Source of the DNA: Lampris incognitus
Lineage: Eukaryota > Chordata > Actinopteri > Lampriformes > Lampridae
Assembly: GCF_029633865.1 (NCBI RefSeq)
Contig: NC_079224.1
Coordinates: 23,182,895-23,246,894, forward strand
Direction: 5' to 3'
Length of the DNA stretch: 64,000 bases
Positions 9,021 through 62,932 of this stretch are shown piece by piece (position 1 is the first letter of the stretch; each line of letters begins with the position of its first letter). The notes below the pieces were generated by a model that saw only the letters and a list, made by a program, of their open reading frames with translations, ran no database searches and was not told the origin of the DNA. Made by a program: the position numbers and the translations under genes.

Positions 9021-10183
9021 CACCTTGCTAGTACCGGGTTGGACCCCCTTTTGACTTCAGAACTGCCTTAATCCTTCGTGGCATAGATTCAACAAGGTAC
9101 TGGAAACATTCCTCAGAGAGTTTGGTCCATATTGACATGATAGCATCACACAGTTGCTGCAGATTTGTCGGCTGCACATCCATGATGCGAATCTCCCGGT
9201 CCACCACATCCCAAAGGTGCTCTATTGGATTGAGATCTGGTGACTGTGGAGGCCATTTGAGTACAGTGAACTCATTGTCATGTTCAAGAAACCATTCTGA
9301 GATGATTCGAGCTTTATGACATGGCGCGTTATCCTGCTGGAAGTAGCCATCAGAAGATGGGAACACTGTGGTCATAAAGGGATGGACATGGTCAGCAACA
9401 ATACTCAGGTAGGCTGTGGCGTTGACACGATGCTCAATTGGTACTAAGGGGCCCAAAGTGTGCCAAGAAAATATCCCCCACACCATTACACCACCACCAC
9501 CAGCCTGAACCGTTGATACAAGGCAGGATGGATCCATGCTTTCATGTTGTTGACGCCAAATTCTGACCCTACCATCCGAATGTCGCAGCAGAAATCGAGA
9601 CTCATCAGACCAGGCAACGTTTTTCCAATCTTCTATTGTCCAATTTTGGTGAGCCTGTGCGAATTGTAGCCTCAGTTTCCTGTTCTTAGCTGACAGGAGT
9701 GGCACCCGGTGTGGTCTTCTGCTGCTGTAGCCCATCTGCCTCAAGGTTCGACGTGTTGTGCATTCAGAGATGCTCTTCTGCATACCTCGGTTGTAATGAG
9801 TGGTTATTTGAGTTACTGTTGCCTTTCTATCAGCTCGAACCAGTCTGGCCATTCTCCTCTGACCTCTGGCATCAACAAGGCATTTTCTCTTTTTCGGACC
9901 ATTCTCTGTAAACCCTAGAGATGGTTGTGCGTGAAAATCCCAGTAGATCAGCAGTTTCTGAAATACTCAGACCAGCCCGTCTGGCACCAACAACCATGCC
10001 ACGTTCAAAGTCACTTAAATCACCTTTCTTCCCCATTCTGATGCTCAGTTTGAACTGCAGCAGATCATCTTGACCATGTCTACATGCCTAAATGCATTGA
10101 GTTGCTGCCATGTGATTGGCTGATTAGAAATTTGCGTTAACGAGCAGTTGGACAGGCGTGCCTAATAAAGTGGCCGGTGAGTG
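9021..10183 (-). mobile_element. Tc1/mariner element, one end missing
   Basis: The transposase-5' end is intact: the terminal inverted repeat reads CACTCACCGGCCACTTTATT on the minus strand, ending at 10183 next to a TA. The other copy of this repeat is absent. The left end stops within sequence reading CCGGTACTAGCAAGGTG and runs directly into the GGAT tail of the family-B SINE. It is therefore immobile. Confidence 0.85.
9028..10036 (-). pseudogene. Tc1-like transposase, frameshifted
   Basis: The N-terminal helix-turn-helix starts at the ATG at 10036 (MGKKGDLSDFERGMVVGARR) and runs into a stop at 9872-9874. The remaining protein resumes in another frame and is open from 9852 to 9028 (274 residues). 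It keeps all three catalytic residues in [16 protein letters not shown] and [12 protein letters not shown] (DD34E) and ends GGPTRY. The frame break looks like a small deletion between the paired-like DNA-binding domain and the catalytic domain. Confidence 0.85.
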
Positions 10184-15965: not shown

Positions 15966-18900
15966 CTACAGCAAAGAAAAGGATTCCGATTTTATTCACA
16001 GTGGATAAGAGTTGTTAAGAAAGACAACATATCTACAGAAATGTGTGTACACATCAGTTGTCATGAACTGCAATGTCCCACACCTTGTTGCTGTAGCGTG
16101 ATATTCTCTAGACGGCTCTCACATTCATTTATAGGTATCATTGTTTTGACAGGTATATTCAAGTCATTCATAGGTTTGGCACTCTGGTAGTCACTTTGAT
16201 TGTTGACTGGGTTGTGGTCCTGCAGTGACTTAGGAGGCTCAAGAGCATTGGACATGAATGACAATGGAGACTCTTCTACATTAGAAAGGACAGCAAGAAT
16301 GTAGAATGACAGCAAAATTATACAAAATATCAAAGTCAGCATCTTAAGCCTTAACTCATGAGAGTTTATTCCCGGTTACCTATAATGGTATGGCATGTAA
16401 AAATCTACTATGTCAATACAGGACTACGTCAAACTAATACACTAACTATTACAATTTCCAACAGCAACAGCACAGTCCTAAGTAATGTAATGACATCAGA
16501 TAACTTGGTTTGTGATGACATGGATTAATTACCTTTAGAGGGTGGCACAATGCTGCAGCTGGTGAGGAAGCCTGGCTGAGATACTTCTACTTCCTGGGAT
16601 GAACAAGACCCTGATCCTGAGGTGGAGCTCTCCTGTAGAGTGGACAGTAAGAGAAAAGGTAAACTTAAAGACAAACACCCTATATAAAAATACAAAAAAC
16701 AAATTTATCGATTGGTTGATGAACTTGACTGATCCCCTAAAGGGAAAATGCATCAGCCACCACACATAAGGACATACAGTGCATCCGGAAAGTATTCACA
16801 CCCCTTCACTTTCCCCACATTTTGTTATGTTACAGCCTTATTCCCAAAGGGATTAAATTCCTTTTTTTCTCATCAATCTACATACAATACCCCATAATGA
16901 CAAAGCGAAAAAGGTTTTATAGAAATTTTTGCAAATTTATTAAAAATAAAAAAAATGAAATATTGCATGTACATAAGTATTCACACCCTTTACTCAGTAC
17001 TTGGTTGAGGCACCCTTGGCAGCGATTACAGCCTCAAGTCTTCTCGGGTATGAAGCTACAAGCTTGGCACACCTATATTTGGGGTATTTCTCCCATTCTT
17101 CTCTGCAGATCCTCTCGAGCTCTGTAGGGTTAGATGGGGAGCGTCGCTGCACAGCTATTTTCAGGTCTTTCCAGAGATGTTCAATGGGGTTCAAGTCTGG
17201 GCTCTGGCTGGGCCACTCAAGGGCATTCACAGACTTGTCCCGAAGCCACTCTTTCGTTGTCTTGGCTGTGTGCTTAGGGTCGTTGTCGTGTTGAAAGGTA
17301 AACCTTCGCCCCAGTCTGAGGTCCTGACCGCTCTGGAGCAGGTTTTCGTCAAGGATCTCTCTGTACTTTGCTCCATTCATCTTTCCCTCAATCCTGACTA
17401 GTCTCCCAGTTCCTGCCGCTGAAAAACATCCCCACAGCATGATGCTGCCACCACCATGCTTCACTGTAGGGATGGTATTAGCAAGGTGATGAGCGGTGCC
17501 TGGTTTCCTCCAGACGTGACGTTTGGCATTCAGGCCAAAAAGTTAAATCTTGGTTTCACCAGACCAGAGAATCTTGTTTCTCATGGTCTGAGAGTCCTTT
17601 AGGTGATTTCTGGCAAACTCCAAGCGGGCTGTCATGTGCCTTTTACTGAGCAGAGTCTTCCATCCGGCCACTCTACCATAAAGGACTGATTAGTGGAGTG
17701 CTGCAGAGATGGTTGTCCTTCTGGAAGGTTCTCCCATCTCCACAGAGGAACGCTGGAGCTCTGTCAGAGTGACCATCGGGTTCTTGGTCACCTCCCTGAC
17801 CAAGGCCCTTCTCCCCCGATTGCTCAGTTTAGCTGGGCGGCCAGCTCTAGGAAGAGTCCTGGTGGATCCAAACTTCTTCCATTTACGAATGATGGAGACC
17901 ACTGTGCTCTTTGGGACCTTCAAAGCTGTAGACATTTTTTTGTACCCTTCCCCAGATCTGTGCCTCGATACAATCCTGTCTCGGAGGTCCACAGACAGTT
18001 CCTTTGACTTCATGGCTTGGTTTCTGCTCTGACATGCACTGTCAACAGTGGGACCTTATATAGACAGGTGTGTGCCTTTCCAAATCATGTCCTATCAATT
18101 GAATTTACTATGGGTGGATTCCAATCAAGATGTAAAAACATCTCAAGGATGATCAGTAGAAACAGGATGAACCTGAGCTCAATTTTGAGTGTCCTAGCAA
18201 AGGGTGTGAATACTTATGTACATGCAATATTTCAGTTTTTTATTTTTAATAAATTTGCAAAAATTTCTACAAAACCTTTTTCACTTTGCCATTATGGGGT
18301 ATTGTGTGTAGATTGATGAAAAAAAAAAGGAATTTAATCCATTTTGGAATAAGGCTGTAACATAACAAAATGTGGGGAAAGTGAAGGGGTGTGAATACTT
18401 TCCGGATGCACTGTATATGACAGAAATATAAGGGTAAAAACAACACTAAAATGGTGCCATTCAGGACAAAACCTTGCCCCTTGACGGTTACTCAAAGTGA
18501 AAGTCAAGGTGCCAGATAGAAGCCTGACTGGGACTAATGTTAACTAATACAATTTAATTTCTCATTGTGGCTTCCCCTTAAAAAAAGTGTTTCTCATAGA
18601 CTGAAAAGAGGACACAGGGCACACTTTGAAAAATACAAGTGTTGAGCCAAAAACAAGTGTTCCCGACAAATCCCCCATACTTTTAGCAGAGCCAATTTGC
18701 TGAAAGGTCACCAAATACGATAGGAAACCCATTTTGGTAGAACACCTGCGACAGATTACTTCCATAGATTAGACCCAGAGATGGGTCTGTCCGACCGTAA
18801 TACTGTCATTCATGATTGGTTGGAAAGAAGTTTGATTATATCTGCTAGTTGCTGCTTTTTTTTCCTAAGTACCTGGCTGTTTGCAAAGTCTGAGAGATTT

Positions 18901-23717: not shown

Positions 23718-23750
<33 letters not shown>

Positions 23751-24623
23751 GTAACGTGCATGACCAAATAGACTCGCTGGCCCTTGGTTAACGGGTCAGA
23801 CCCTTTAGTTGACTGGTTAACATAGTCACCCGTGGTGCAGGAGATCCGGGTTCGCGTCCTGGCTGCGGTGGTTCCCACGCTGCTCCCCAAATTCGCCACA
23901 TTGGTGTCAGAAGTAGGATGGTGAGACTGTGAGGCCATCGGAAGCACGTGCGCCCAGAGGCATGAGGGAGCTGATATGCTGAAGCGTGGGGATGCACTTC
24001 CCGAAGGATGGGGGTAGTGTAACGTGCATGGATAAATAGACTCGCTGGCCCTTGGCTAACGGGTCGGACGCTTTAGTCGACTGGTTAACGTAGTCAACCG
24101 TGGTGTGGGAGATCCGGGTTCGCATCCCGGCTGTGGCGGTTCCCGGGCTGCCCCCCGAATTCGCTACATTCCCAAATTTGCTACATTCCTGAAGGAGGGG
24201 GGTAGTGTAACGTGCACAGATAAATAGACTCGCTGGCCCTTGGTTAATGGGTTGGACCCTTTAGTCGACTGGTTAACATAGTTGTCCATGATGTGGGAGA
24301 CACGGGTTCGCATCCTGGCTGTGGCAGTTCCCGGCTGTCCCCCTGAATTCGCTACATTGGTGTCCGAAGTGGGATGGTGAGACCGTGAAGCCATCGGAAG
24401 TGTGTGCGCCCAGGGGCGTGAGGGAGCTGATACACTGAAGCACAGGGACGCGCTTCCTGACGGAGTGGAGTAGTGTAATGTGCACGGATAAATAGACTCG
24501 CTAGCCCTTGGCTAACGGGTTGGACCCTTTAGTCGACTGGTTAACGTTGTCGCCCATGGTGCGGGAGATCCGGGTTCGCGTCTTGGCTGCGGCGGTTCCC
24601 GGACTGGCCCCCGAATTCGCTAC

Positions 24624-24675
<52 letters not shown>

Positions 24676-25280
24676 GTAACGTGCATGACCAAATAGACCC
24701 GCTGGCCCTTGGTTAACGGGTCGGACCCTTTAGTTGACTGGTTAACATAGTTGCCCGTGGTGCAGGAGATCCGGGTTTGCGTCCTGGCTGCGGTGGTTCC
24801 CACGCTGCTCCCCAAATTCGCCACATTGGTGTCAGAAGTAGGATGGTGAGACTGTGAGGCCATCGGAAGCACGTGCGCCCAGAGGCATGAGGGAGCTGAT
24901 ATGCTGAAGCGTGGGGACACACTTCCCGAAGGATGGGGGTAGTGTAACGTGCACGGATAAATAGACTCGCTGGCCCTTGGCTAACGGGTCGGACCCTTTA
25001 GTCGACTGGTTAACATAGTCAACCGTGGCGTGGGAGATCCGGGTTCGCATCCCGGCTGTGGCGGTTCCCAGGCTGCCCCCCGAATTCGCTACATTCCCAA
25101 ATTTGCTACATTCCTGAAGGAGGGGGGTAGTGTAACATGCACAGATAAATAGACTCGCTAGCCCTTGGCTAACGGGTTGGACCCTTTAGTCGACTGGTTA
25201 ACATAGTTGCCCATGGTGCGGGAGATCCGGGTTTGCGTCTTGGCTGCGGCGGTTCCCGGACTGGCCCCCGAATTCGCTAC

Positions 25281-25323
<43 letters not shown>

Positions 25324-46863: not shown

Positions 46864-49325
46864 TATCTACTACTACTACTTTCGGCTGCTCCTGTTAGGG
46901 GTCGCCACAGCGGATCATCCGTTTCCATTTCTTCCTGTCTTCTGCGTCTTCCTCTGTCACACCAGCCACCTGCATGTCTTCCCTCACCACATCCATAAAC
47001 CTCCTCTTTGGCCTTCCTCTTCTCCTCTTCCCTGGCAGCTCCATATTCAGCATCCTTCTCCCAATATACTCAGCATCTCTCCTCCACACATGTCCAAGCC
47101 ATCTCAATCTTGCCTCTCTTGCTTTGTCTCCAAACCGTCCAACCTGAGCGGTCCCTCTAATATAATCGTTCCTAATCCTGTCCTTCTTCGTTACTCCCAG
47201 TGAGAATCTTAACATCTTCAACTCTGCCACCTCCAGCTCCACCTCCTGTCTTTTCGTCAGTGCCACTGTCTCCAAACCATATAACATAGCTGGTCTCACA
47301 ACCATCTTGTAAACTTTCCCTTTAACTCTTGCTGATACCCTTCTGTCGCAAATCACTCCTGACTCACTTCTCCACCCACTCCAACCTGCCTGCACTCTCT
47401 TTTTCACCTCTCTACTGCACTCCCCGTTACTTTGGACAGTTGACCCCAAGTATTTAAACTCAAATGCCTTTGTCACCTCCACTCCTTGCATCCTGACCAT
47501 TCCACTGTCCTCCCTCTCATTCACGCATAGGTATTCCGTCTTGTTCCTACTGACTTTCATTCCTCTTCTCTCCAGTGCATACCTCCACCTCTCCAGGCTC
47601 CCCTCAACCTGCACCCTACTCTCGCTACAGATCACAATGTCATCCGCGAACATCATCGTCCATGGAGACTCCTGCCTGATCTTGTCCGTCAACCTGTCCA
47701 TCACCATTTCAAACAAGAAAGGGCTAAGAGCCGATCCTTGATGTAATCCCACCTCCACCTTGAACCCATCTGTCATTCCAACCACACACCTCACCATTGT
47801 CACACCTCCCTCATACGTATCCTGCACCACTCCTACATACTTCTCTGCAACTCCTGACTTCCACATACAATACCACACCTCCTCTCTCGGCACTCTGTCA
47901 TAAGCTTTCTCTAAATCTACAAAGACACAATGCAACTCTTTCTGGCCTTCTCTATACTTCTCAATCAACATTCTCAAAGCAAACATCGCATCTGTGGCGC
48001 TCTTTCGTGGCATGAAACCATACTGCTGCTCGCTGATCGTCACCTCTCCTCTTAACCTAGCTTCTATTACTCTTTCCCAAATCTTCATGCTGTGGCTGAT
48101 CGACTTTATACCTCTGTAGTTGTTACAGTTCTGCACATCACCCTTGTTCTTGAAAATCGGTACCAGTATGCTTCTTCTCCACTCCTCAGGCATCCTCTCA
48201 CTTTCCAGGATTGTGTTAAACAATCTAGTTAAAAACTCCACTGCCATCTCTCCTAAACATCTCCATGCCTCCACAGGTATGTCATCAGGACCAACTGCCT
48301 TTCCACTCTTCATCCTCTTCATAACTGCCCTCACTTCATCCTTGCTAATCCGCTGAACTTCCTGATTCACTATCCCTATATCATCCAACCTTCTCTCTCT
48401 CTCATTTTCTTCATTCATCAGCCCCTCAAAGTATTCCTTCCACCTTCTTAGCACACTCTCCTCGCTTGTCAGCACATTTCCATCTCTATCCTTGATCGCC
48501 CTAACTTGCTGCACATCCTTTGCAGCTTGGTCCCTCTGTCTAGCCAATCGGTACAAGTCCTTTTCTCCTTCCTTAGTGTCTAATCTGTCATACAACTCAC
48601 CATATGCCTTTTCCTTTGCCTTTGCCACCTCTCTCTTTGCTTTACGCTGCATCTCCTTGTACTCCTGTCTACTTTCTTCATCTCTCTTACTATCCCACTT
48701 CTTCTTTGCCAACCTTTTCCTCTGTATACTTTGCTGTACTTCCTCATTCCACCACCAAGTCTCCTTGTCTTCCTTCCTCTGTCCTGATGACACACCAAGT
48801 ACCTTCCTAGCTGTCTCCCTCACTATTTCTGCAGGGGTTTTCCAGCCATCTGGCAACTCTTCACTACCACCCAGTGCCTGTCTTAACTCCTGCCTGAACT
48901 CCACACAACAGTCTTCCTTCTTCAACTTCCACCATTTGATCTTCGGCTGTGTCTTCACTCGCTTCCTCTTCTTGGTCTCCAAAGTCATCCTACAGACCAC
49001 CATCCGATGCTGCCTAGCTACGTTCTCCCCTGTCACCACCTTGCAGTCTCCAATCCCTTTTAGATGGCGCCTTCTACATAAGATATAGTCCACCTGTGTG
49101 CACTTTCCTCCACTCTTGTACGTCACCCTGTGTTCCTCCCTCTTCTTGAAATATGTATTCACCACAGCCATTTCCATCCTTTTCGCAAAATCGACCACCA
49201 TCTGTCCTTCCACATTTCTCTTCTTGACTCCATACCTGCCCATCTCCTCATCACCTCTGTTCCCTTATCCGAGCTTGGGACCCGCACTAAGAATACATTG
49301 GCTTCCTCAGTGGCTGGGTTAGTGG
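46864..49325 (-). mobile_element. RTE-like LINE, copy A (internal deletion)
   Basis: The 3' end reads GGAGCAGCCGAAAG followed by (TAG)n at 46864-46880, an RTE-style simple-repeat tail. The 5' end keeps 5'UTR sequence (CCCAGCCACTGAGG, then ATTCTTAGTGC). The 5'UTR is joined at about 49264 directly to the late endonuclease region. Compared with copy B, roughly 650-700 bp are missing, including the endonuclease start. Confidence 0.85.
46895..49243 (-). CDS. RTE-like LINE polyprotein, 782 residues, reverse transcriptase intact, endonuclease truncated
   Basis: The open frame covers the C-terminal part of the AP-type endonuclease (VDYILCRRRH, ARQHRMVVC; about residues 1-90) and a basic linker. The reverse transcriptase follows: SGKAVGPDDIPVEAWRC, ILVPIFKNKGDVQNCNNYRG, YGFMPRKSATDAMFALRML, HCVFVDLEKAYDRVP, GLHQGSALSPFLFEMVMDRL and the FADD box in WTMMFADDIVI. 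The end carries RLRWLGHVWRRD and GKRRRGRPKRRF. Upstream of the ATG a TAA is in frame, so this ATG is only the first available one. It has no endonuclease catalytic start, so autonomous target-primed insertion is unlikely. The frame has no stops over 2.3 kb, which suggests a young copy. Confidence 0.88.
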   Translation of the reverse strand: MGRYGVKKRNVEGQMVVDFAKRMEMAVVNTYFKKREEHRVTYKSGGKCTQVDYILCRRRHLKGIGDCKVVTGENVARQHRMVVCRMTLETKKRKRVKTQPKIKWWKLKKEDCCVEFRQELRQALGGSEELPDGWKTPAEIVRETARKVLGVSSGQRKEDKETWWWNEEVQQSIQRKRLAKKKWDSKRDEESRQEYKEMQRKAKREVAKAKEKAYGELYDRLDTKEGEKDLYRLARQRDQAAKDVQQVRAIKDRDGNVLTSEESVLRRWKEYFEGLMNEENERERRLDDIGIVNQEVQRISKDEVRAVMKRMKSGKAVGPDDIPVEAWRCLGEMAVEFLTRLFNTILESERMPEEWRRSILVPIFKNKGDVQNCNNYRGIKSISHSMKIWERVIEARLRGEVTISEQQYGFMPRKSATDAMFALRMLIEKYREGQKELHCVFVDLEKAYDRVPREEVWYCMWKSGVAEKYVGVVQDTYEGGVTMVRCVVGMTDGFKVEVGLHQGSALSPFLFEMVMDRLTDKIRQESPWTMMFADDIVICSESRVQVEGSLERWRYALERRGMKVSRNKTEYLCVNEREDSGMVRMQGVEVTKAFEFKYLGSTVQSNGECSREVKKRVQAGWSGWRSESGVICDRRVSARVKGKVYKMVVRPAMLYGLETVALTKRQEVELEVAELKMLRFSLGVTKKDRIRNDYIRGTAQVGRFGDKAREARLRWLGHVWRRDAEYIGRRMLNMELPGKRRRGRPKRRFMDVVREDMQVAGVTEEDAEDRKKWKRMIRCGDP

Positions 49326-61352: not shown

Positions 61353-62932
61353 CACTGCTCAAAAAAATAAAGGGAACACATAAGCGATGCAATGTAGCTC
61401 CAAGTCAATCACACTTTTGAGATATCAACCTGTCCAGTTAGGAAGCAACACTGATTTGTGAATCAATTTCACCTGTTGGTAAATTGTCAAATTTCCACCA
61501 GGTGGAAATTAGACAATTTGCAAGACAACCCCTATAAAAGGAATGGATTTGCAGGTGGTGGCCACAGACCATTTGCCTGTCCTCATCTTTTCTGGCCGAT
61601 CTTTGGTTAGTTTTTCATTGTGCTAGTGCCCTCACCACTAGAGGTGGCATGAGGCGGTATCTGCAACCTACAGAAGTTGCTCAGGTAGTGCAGCTCATCC
61701 AGGATGGCACATCAATGCGTGCTGTGGCAAGAAGATTTGATGTGTCTCCCAGCACAGTGTCCACAGCATGGAGGAGGTACCAGGAGACAGGCCAGTACAC
61801 CAGGAGACGTGGAGGGGGCCGCAGGAGGACAACAACCCCGCAGCAGGACCGCTATCTGGTCCTTTGTGCAAGGAGGAACAGGAGGAGCACTGCCGGAGCC
61901 CTACAAAACGACCTTCAACAGGCCACTAATGTGCAGGTTTCTGCTCAAACAGTGAGAAACAGAATGCATGAGGATGGTATGAGGGCCCGACGTCCACAAT
62001 TGGGGCCTGTGCTCACAGCCCAACACCGTGCAGCCCGATTGACCTTTGCCAGAGAACATCTTGGTTGGCAGATTCGCCATTGGCGCCCTGTGCTCTTCAC
62101 AGATGAGAGCAGGTTCACACTGAACACATGTGACAGACGTGAGAGAGTCTGGAGACGCTGTGGAGAACGTTCTGCTGCCTGCAACATCCTCCAGCATGAC
62201 CGGTTTGGCGGTGGGTCAGTGATGGTCTGGGGAGGCATATCCTTGGAGGGCCGCACAGACCTCTACGTGCTAGCCAGAGGTACCATGACTGCCATTAGGT
62301 ACCGGGATGAGATCCTCAGACCCATTGTCAGACCATATGCTGGTGCAGTGGGCCCTGGGTTCCTGCTCATGCATGACAATGCTCGTCCTCATGTGGCCAG
62401 AGTGTGTCAGCAGTTCCTGTATGTCGAGGGCATTGATGCTATGGACTGGCCTGCACGTTCCCCAGACCTGAATCCAATCGGGCACCTCTGGGACATCATG
62501 TCTCGTACCATCCGCCAACGCGATGTCGCACCACAGACTGTCCAGGAGTTGACCGATGCCCTGATCCAGGTCTGGGAGGAGATCCCTCAGGAGACCATCC
62601 GTCGTCTCATCAGGAGCATGCCCAGACGTTGTAGGGAGTGCATACAGGCACGTGGAGGCCACACACACTACTGAGCCTCATTTTGAATCGTCTTGAACAA
62701 TTTCCACAGAAGTTGGATCAGCCTATGTTCTCATTTTCCACTTTGATTTTGAGTATGATTCTGAATCCAGACCTTAATGGGCTAATGATTTTGATTTCCA
62801 TTGATCATTCTTAGGTTATTTTGCTCTAAACACATTCCTCTGTCTAATAAATAAAGATTTTCAGCTGAAATATTTCATTCATCGAGGTCTATATTGTGTT
62901 TTTAGGTGTTCCCTTTATTTTTTTGAGCAGTG
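61353..62932 (+). mobile_element. Complete Tc1/mariner element
   Basis: The inverted repeats CACTGCTCAAAAAAATAAAG (61353) and its reverse complement ending at 62932 are almost identical over at least 28 bp. TA is duplicated at 61351-61352 and 62933-62934. At 1,580 bp it has the standard size with one long transposase frame. It lies to the right of the signal-peptide exon. Confidence 0.95.
61649..62674 (+). CDS. Tc1 transposase, 341 residues, uninterrupted, catalytic Glu replaced by Gly
   Basis: The N-terminal paired-like DNA-binding domain ([20 protein letters not shown], about residues 9-60; [17 protein letters not shown]) is followed by a GRRR AT-hook-like basic stretch (GGGRRRTT) and the catalytic domain. 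First Asp in FTDESRF, second Asp in LMHDNARPH. The residue 35 positions after the second Asp, where DD34E enzymes have Glu ([11 protein letters not shown] in the copies at 9028 and 16994), is Gly here: [11 protein letters not shown] (codon GGG, 62480-62482). The length and termini are normal for Tc1 (about 340 residues). The protein is probably made but catalytically dead, while the element could still move if another copy supplied the enzyme. Confidence 0.92.

Follow-up and report, generated by a model that had tools for sequence, protein, structure and literature searches.

The window, that is, the whole 64,000-nucleotide stretch of Lampris incognitus DNA analysed here, carries at positions 23750–25281 an array of seven LTRs, three 117-bp internal segments, two 37-bp stubs and one microsatellite that lies between two duplicated blocks. 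Its parts, and the microsatellite that borders it, are as follows.

23750–23900, + strand: LTR1, 151 bp, with A rather than T as its first base
23901–24017, + strand: internal segment 1, 117 bp, consisting of a T, the primer site at 23902–23919 (17/18) and further sequence with a purine-rich end at 24003–24017
24018–24168, + strand: LTR2, with a box A-like sequence at 24074–24084 and a box B-like sequence at 24117–24127
24169–24205, + strand: 37-bp internal stub with no primer site, made up of part of an LTR end and then the purine-rich end (origin judged by eye)
24206–24356, + strand: LTR3
24357–24473, + strand: internal segment 2, 117 bp, primer site at 24358–24375 (17/18)
24474–24624, + strand: LTR4
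24625–24674, no strand: CA/TA microsatellite between LTR4 and LTR5, separating the blocks; not an internal segment
24675–24825, + strand: LTR5, duplicate of LTR1 (96.7%)
24826–24942, + strand: internal segment 3, 117 bp, primer site at 24827–24844 (17/18, mismatch as in the first)
24943–25093, + strand: LTR6, duplicate of LTR2 (96.7%)
25094–25130, + strand: second 37-bp internal stub, identical to the first, with no primer site
25131–25281, + strand: LTR7, 95.4% identical to LTR4, with a left end like that of LTR3
25282–25321, no strand: CA microsatellite bordering the array on the right

An earlier note on this DNA had described seven 151-bp units, three of them followed by a T and an 18-nt site, and a 117-bp internal segment whose purine tract abuts the next LTR, giving a 419-bp unit with no coding room, and our coordinates bear all of this out. 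Each of the seven LTRs is exactly 151 bp long; the first bases are TGTAA in five of them and AGTAA in LTR1 and LTR5, which lie next to a (TA)n tract, and the last are GCTACA in five and GCCACA in two. The three primer sites each match TGGTGTCAGAAGTGGGAT at 17 of 18 positions. The single difference per site had been seen before, but that these positions differ is true only in part: the first and third sites have the same mismatch because they are duplicates of each other, and only the second (24358–24375) is mismatched elsewhere. Purine-rich tracts (GAAGGATGGGGGTAG and similar) close the 117-bp internal segments, and the full unit is 151 + 117 + 151 = 419 bp; an internal segment this short leaves no possibility of an element-specific gene. 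The two 37-bp stubs and the CA/TA microsatellite are additions to the earlier description. Elsewhere in the window, open frames at 9028–9966, 16994–17542 and 61538–62674 resemble, by eye, Tc1/mariner-type transposases, and one at 46895–49264 resembles a LINE reverse transcriptase.

The tandem repeat has a TRF score of 2155, and the exact 18-nt primer site occurs 5,346 times in the 1.48-Gb genome against 0 for the reversed control pattern; together these exclude an array formed by chance. The tRNA-Leu match, too, is better than chance would give. Complete junctions (exact LTR end, T, primer site, 80–110 bp and LTR start) are present 1,015 times genome-wide and 0 times in the reversed control, and the 14-base LTR end is found exactly 9,766 times, followed in 1,982 cases by TTGGTGTC; all such exact-pattern counts are lower bounds. 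If one 3′ LTR is allowed for each LTR end that bears a primer site, about 59% of the exact LTR ends are solo LTRs, LTR-only arrays or copies with altered primer sites. The copies fetched from the 1,015-junction set, and most other loci, come from contig C1.

Target duplications were sought at 68 loci (L001–L038 and L055–L084), which were searched with natural LTR copies. A first pass gave 14 rows of two-LTR copies with complete outer ends, nine of them with an exact 4-bp duplication. Two rows (L032 and L037) were then removed, their left flank being a purine tract and hence an internal junction, and two were added: L033, which was read directly after having been chained with a neighbouring element, and L070, which had been classed under arrays when an alignment gap split one of its LTRs. 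In this final set an exact 4-bp duplication flanks 11 of 14 copies (the exceptions are L007, L012 and L015), and all 11 are of the form xTAx, TA making up 5.8% of dinucleotides in L001–L038. Shuffled pairings of the flanks gave a mean of 2.6 duplications and reached 11 in 0 of 2,000 trials. Among single-LTR rows 13 of 16 adjoin a primer site or purine tract, and the remaining three are free solo LTRs, two with ATAT on both sides (L025 and L061) and one whose flanks agree at three of four bases (L008). Thus the single LTR-internal-LTR copies and solo LTRs with 4-bp duplications, to which the earlier note had looked for support of a retrotransposon, do exist elsewhere in this genome.

Could the repeat instead be satellite DNA that merely resembles LTRs and was never retrotransposed? 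Tandem arrays do occur at other loci, with six LTR-like units in L031 and, in L058 (1524–2930), ten partial LTR units in a row at 136–161 bp spacing with no internal segments, and among the first 100 primer-site places three same-strand pairs lie 200–320 bp apart (by eye). Most copies, however, are dispersed single elements, and the complete junctions, the conserved primer site and the 4-bp duplications just described lead us to reject a satellite-only account, which we consider very improbable; in L058 an LTR is on its way to becoming a satellite. A SINE derived from a tRNA, copied by a LINE and arranged in tandem by accident, would account for the tRNA-like box A and box B of the repeat unit (below), and yet it is an extremely improbable source for two LTRs with TG..CA-type ends, for a primer site at a fixed spacing of 1 nt, and for duplications fixed at 4 bp instead of varying together with a tail; no A-rich or LINE-like tail is present in the copies whose flanks were read.

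Several structural variants were seen among these loci. The distance from primer site to next LTR is only 54 bp in L063, L068, L078 and L079 and 47 bp in L059, and L082 is by eye another such short-internal copy. LTR positions ∼22–61 are repeated in L087. Inverted LTRs face each other across the primer site in L062, L065, L088, L098 and L104, possibly the result of strand switching during reverse transcription. Just upstream of the copy in L018, positions 1130–1210 match Twister-P1 with 46.3 bits (gathering score 67.2) and an E value of 4.2e-07.

With two LTRs, a primer site, a purine tract, a length below 1,000 bp and no coding capacity, the element has the features of a TRIM, and the short target duplication that also belongs to TRIMs is present in dispersed copies and not preserved at the window array. 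The TRIM-type reading proposed earlier is thus supported both by the LTR-T-primer site-purine tract-LTR anatomy and by the dispersed, duplicated copies. The accompanying remark that no named fish family has such a structure does not hold, since the available text of Kojima (2024, PMC10886601) describes Helenus, a group of TRIMs whose LTRs contain a tRNA-like sequence and which includes LTR-11_DR of zebrafish. According to that text, Helenus elements make 4-bp duplications in animals and use tRNA-His, -Leu or -Lys primers in vertebrates; LTR-11_DR is very abundant, with 5,575 LTRs and 2,618 internal segments, and forms tandem arrays; and related families occur in Cypriniformes, a catfish and milkfish. 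The L. incognitus element likewise is short and gene-less, has box A- and box B-like sequences in its LTR, a tRNA-Leu primer site and 4-bp duplications, and is present in thousands of copies, some of them in tandem (compare PMC10886601, as far as available). By these features it is a Helenus element, its likeness to LTR-11_DR being one of described features, and the window very probably holds a local tandem array of a non-autonomous LTR retrotransposon of ∼420 bp of this kind. As such the array is ordinary, tandem arrays being already known in Helenus; the xTAx preference and the over-extended primer copies treated below are not mentioned in the available text of PMC10886601.

Two other kinds of small LTR element were considered and rejected. 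Plant Cassandra elements, as described in the accessible part of PMC7215508, are likewise TRIMs whose LTR includes a promoter of Pol III type, and they form tandem arrays of LTRs and internal domains, but they carry 5S rRNA, to which the array has no match at E ≤ 1. Retrozymes (PMC4918200, in the part available) are small and non-autonomous as well, but carry hammerhead ribozymes, and here too the array has no match at E ≤ 1.

The LTR has a tRNA-like region that the earlier note did not mention. Box A-like and box B-like sequences (e.g., TAGTCGACTGG and GGTTCGCGTCC) stand 43 bp apart in 16 of 18 LTRs of this first family, the best pair lying at different positions in L012 and L021, and in the array all LTRs share the offsets of LTR2. 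For 17 of the 18, no more than 6 of 100 dinucleotide shuffles scored as high as the pair or higher; the pair of LTR7 was equalled by 14 of 100. A working tRNA inside the LTR is rejected, as neither Rfam (E ≤ 1 for the window array and E ≤ 0.05 for 20 loci) nor ARAGORN (window and L001–L038) calls one, and such negative calls are expected for most Helenus families, to judge from the available text of PMC10886601. Judged by its sequence, a Pol III promoter in the LTR is plausible, and the tRNA-like region would act as that promoter; with Pol III transcription the element would count as a TRIMp3. A TTTT terminator, at which a Pol III transcript would end, is absent from all 19 LTRs examined, a point against this reading.

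The history of the array can be partly read from its own sequence. Block 2 aligns with the LTR1–LTR3 part of block 1 at 94.7% identity over 642 columns, and this match, together with the similarity of LTR5, LTR6 and LTR7 to LTR1, LTR2 and LTR4, respectively, indicates that the array is a duplicated block whose second copy lacks one LTR-internal unit. LTR3 and LTR4 differ at 23 sites; at the first two of these and at three central ones LTR7 agrees with LTR3, and at the other 18 with LTR4. On these sites LTR7 looks like an LTR3/LTR4 recombinant with the crossover near its left end, and the three middle sites could be due to conversion or to later changes in LTR4. Repeated LTR-LTR recombination, to which the earlier note had attributed the array, is therefore upheld as a process but not as the sole route, since part of the array is a duplication of a block flanked by CA microsatellites. 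The array has no intact target duplication (ATAT on the left, ACAC on the right), although the xTAx preference fits insertion into the TA part of the CA/TA microsatellite. Most likely the element was inserted into this microsatellite first and the array grew afterwards, most likely by unequal exchange between LTRs and by block duplication through the flanking CA tracts. Alternatively, the array could have been built before insertion, by reverse transcription of a multi-unit read-through RNA. Read-through would be favored by LTRs that lack a TTTT terminator, and multi-unit transcripts are reported for Cassandra, for which both routes are discussed (PMC7215508, in the part available). We regard this as unlikely here, as the microsatellite between the blocks places at least that step at the DNA level and LTR7 looks like the product of an LTR3/LTR4 crossover.

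A candidate for the autonomous partner was sought among 30 loci drawn from a set of 675 primer sites whose next base is not G. Three of them (L064, L073 and L076) have a different LTR that ends GCCACA or GCCACT and is followed by the same T and 18 primer bases, a spacer and site imposed by the search itself on these Gypsy-like copies. An exact search for places of this type found five, and of the four fetched one was L064 again. By eye, the LTR starts with TGTAGCG in all four starts seen (L073, L076, L108 and the 3′ LTR in L105), ATAT precedes the start in L073 and follows the LTR end in L105, AAAA precedes the start in L108, and internal-like sequence precedes the LTR of L076. Seven open fragments were compared with Pfam; one contains a zf-CCHC zinc knuckle (E 9e-06) and one an RVP match below the cut-off (E 0.003), while the other five had no meaningful Pfam match and no reverse transcriptase was read. 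This Ty3/Gypsy-like element with its similar LTR end is a tentative candidate for the partner; its proteins would copy and integrate the RNA of the small element, which has the same primer site. An ERV-like group (L055, L056, L077 and L083) with the same 18-nt tRNA-Leu primer site was also seen by eye, and it was set aside as partner, its LTR ends being different.

Weak LTR matches in L012, L033, L037 and L070 turned out to come from a further family that resembles Helenus. Its LTR is ∼135 bp long (TGTAAACTAC...GGTTACA) and is followed by one T and then the primer site TGGTGGCAGCGGTGGGAT; exact junctions of LTR end and primer site number 1,726 genome-wide, and the matching tRNA 3′ end, which we take to be that of tRNA-Leu(AAG), occurs seven times. 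In the one copy examined for boxes the pair was equalled by 1 of 100 shuffles. This second family, with a different tRNA-Leu-like primer site, is new here.

The common primer site of the first family is exactly complementary to the last 15 bases of host tRNA-Leu genes (which end ...ATCCCACTTCTGACA) plus CCA, so the tRNA-Leu assignment of the earlier note stands; its choice of the CAA isoacceptor does not, as will be seen. On the 18-nt site alone tRNA-Leu(CAG) and tRNA-Leu(CAA) are indistinguishable here, because their 3′ ends are alike. Exact copies of the tRNA-Leu 3′ end number 38 in this genome, of which 20 were fetched and 14 of those run through ARAGORN. Thirteen of the 20 have no CCA and comprise ten of CAG type, among them L101, which ARAGORN calls tRNA-Leu(CAG), and three of CAA type (L085, L086 and L099), in which an intron can be read but which ARAGORN does not confirm, calling L086 tRNA-Val. 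The other seven, near position 1500 of their loci (L087, L088, L098, L100, L102, L103 and L104), have the order LTR, T, TGG and primer site, and continue into the body of the tRNA; TGG is the complement of the CCA added to mature tRNAs. The two isoacceptors are alike up to base 32 of the copy, and beyond it the bodies of L088, L098, L102, L103 and L104 are of CAG type, while L087 departs after 26 bases and L100 after 37. Genome-wide, with up to three mismatches, the CAG body is found at 12 places, ten with TGG and two without (genes), and the CAA body at a single place (L086), without TGG. Beyond the loci read, the CAG places with TGG lie on C12, C26 (two), C5 and C10:47140287, and further CCA-bearing copies lie on C11 and C14. 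Ten CCA-bearing CAG bodies against no CAA body indicate that the recorded primer is tRNA-Leu(CAG), which would be the primer of the element.

Over-extended copies of this kind may retain more than the identity of the tRNA. The clean insertion in L100 consists of an LTR, T, primer site, 37 nt of tRNA, a purine tract and an LTR, with ATAT on both sides, and the tRNA copies of L088, L098 and L104 continue into an LTR fragment in inverted orientation. Position 33 of the copy lies, in our own numbering, opposite C-e2 of the variable loop; there the ten CCA-bearing CAG copies have A in nine cases and T in one, whereas CAG-type copies with no CCA have G in the ten read and in two more from the genome-wide search (Fisher p 1.5e-06 if the copies are independent, which the clustered L091–L097 are not). 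L100 also has A there, which may belong to its junction. In three of the seven copies read (L098, L102 and L104) the copy is 45 nt long and stops immediately short of G37, a base that we take to be m1G in tRNA-Leu(CAG); the length is 43 nt in L088, or 45 with one mismatch allowed, 26 in L087, 37 in L100 and 62 in L103. Opposite A58, eight of the ten genome-wide CCA copies have the expected T and two have C (C5 and C10:47140287), and in copies found through the exact tRNA-Leu 3′ end the T was required by the search.

In zebrafish, Leu-CAG carries m3C at e2 and a stable m1A58, and m1G37 is present in many tRNAs (tRNA sequencing, PMC11417395, in the part available). In HIV-1, according to the accessible part of PMC13191261, plus-strand synthesis halts at m1A58 once the 18-nt site has been copied, and when this stop fails and A58 is passed, over-extended plus-strand strong-stop DNA results, of which only some short over-extensions are usable as templates. 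The copies described here would correspond to such products, with the difference that those are laboratory and viral products (PMC13191261), and ours are integrated in a genome and involve a different tRNA. The change at position 33 and the ends before G37 suggest that modified bases were copied. We tentatively propose that the reverse transcriptase passed A58 in mature tRNA-Leu(CAG), misread C-e2 as A or T and often stopped before position 37, and that derivatives arose by template switching, which from over-extended products would give both shortened and inverted forms.

It is also quite possible that modified bases had no part in this, the A at position 33 coming from an unseen tRNA-Leu(CAG) isodecoder or an amplified founder and the 45-nt length from priming by a tRNA 3′ half. 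There are only ten CCA-bearing copies, a variant gene with an unlike flank could have escaped the CAG-body search, and a length of 48 nt including CCA is close to that of a 3′ half. Against this account stand the G in all 12 CCA-less CAG copies, although several of these lie in one cluster, and a fossil that has T and not A. A founder and a 3′ half are both disfavored for the copies read, because six of them (L088, L098, L100, L102, L103 and L104) have different junctions and L103 copies 62 nt, past the anticodon loop.

No paper found in our searches of an open library treats over-extended tRNA copies kept in genomes, to judge by titles and the openings of abstracts; these fossils of over-extension are new here and are the part worth following. 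Unlike the 18-nt site, they could identify a primer tRNA without biochemistry, and if our reading of them is true, the genome keeps in its DNA a record of the identity of the primer tRNA and of the positions at which that tRNA was modified. Provided that the signatures at e2 and G37 are borne out, old LTR elements would document, as fossils, tRNA modifications and lapses of the m1A58 stop, and any genome with many small LTR elements would allow a check.
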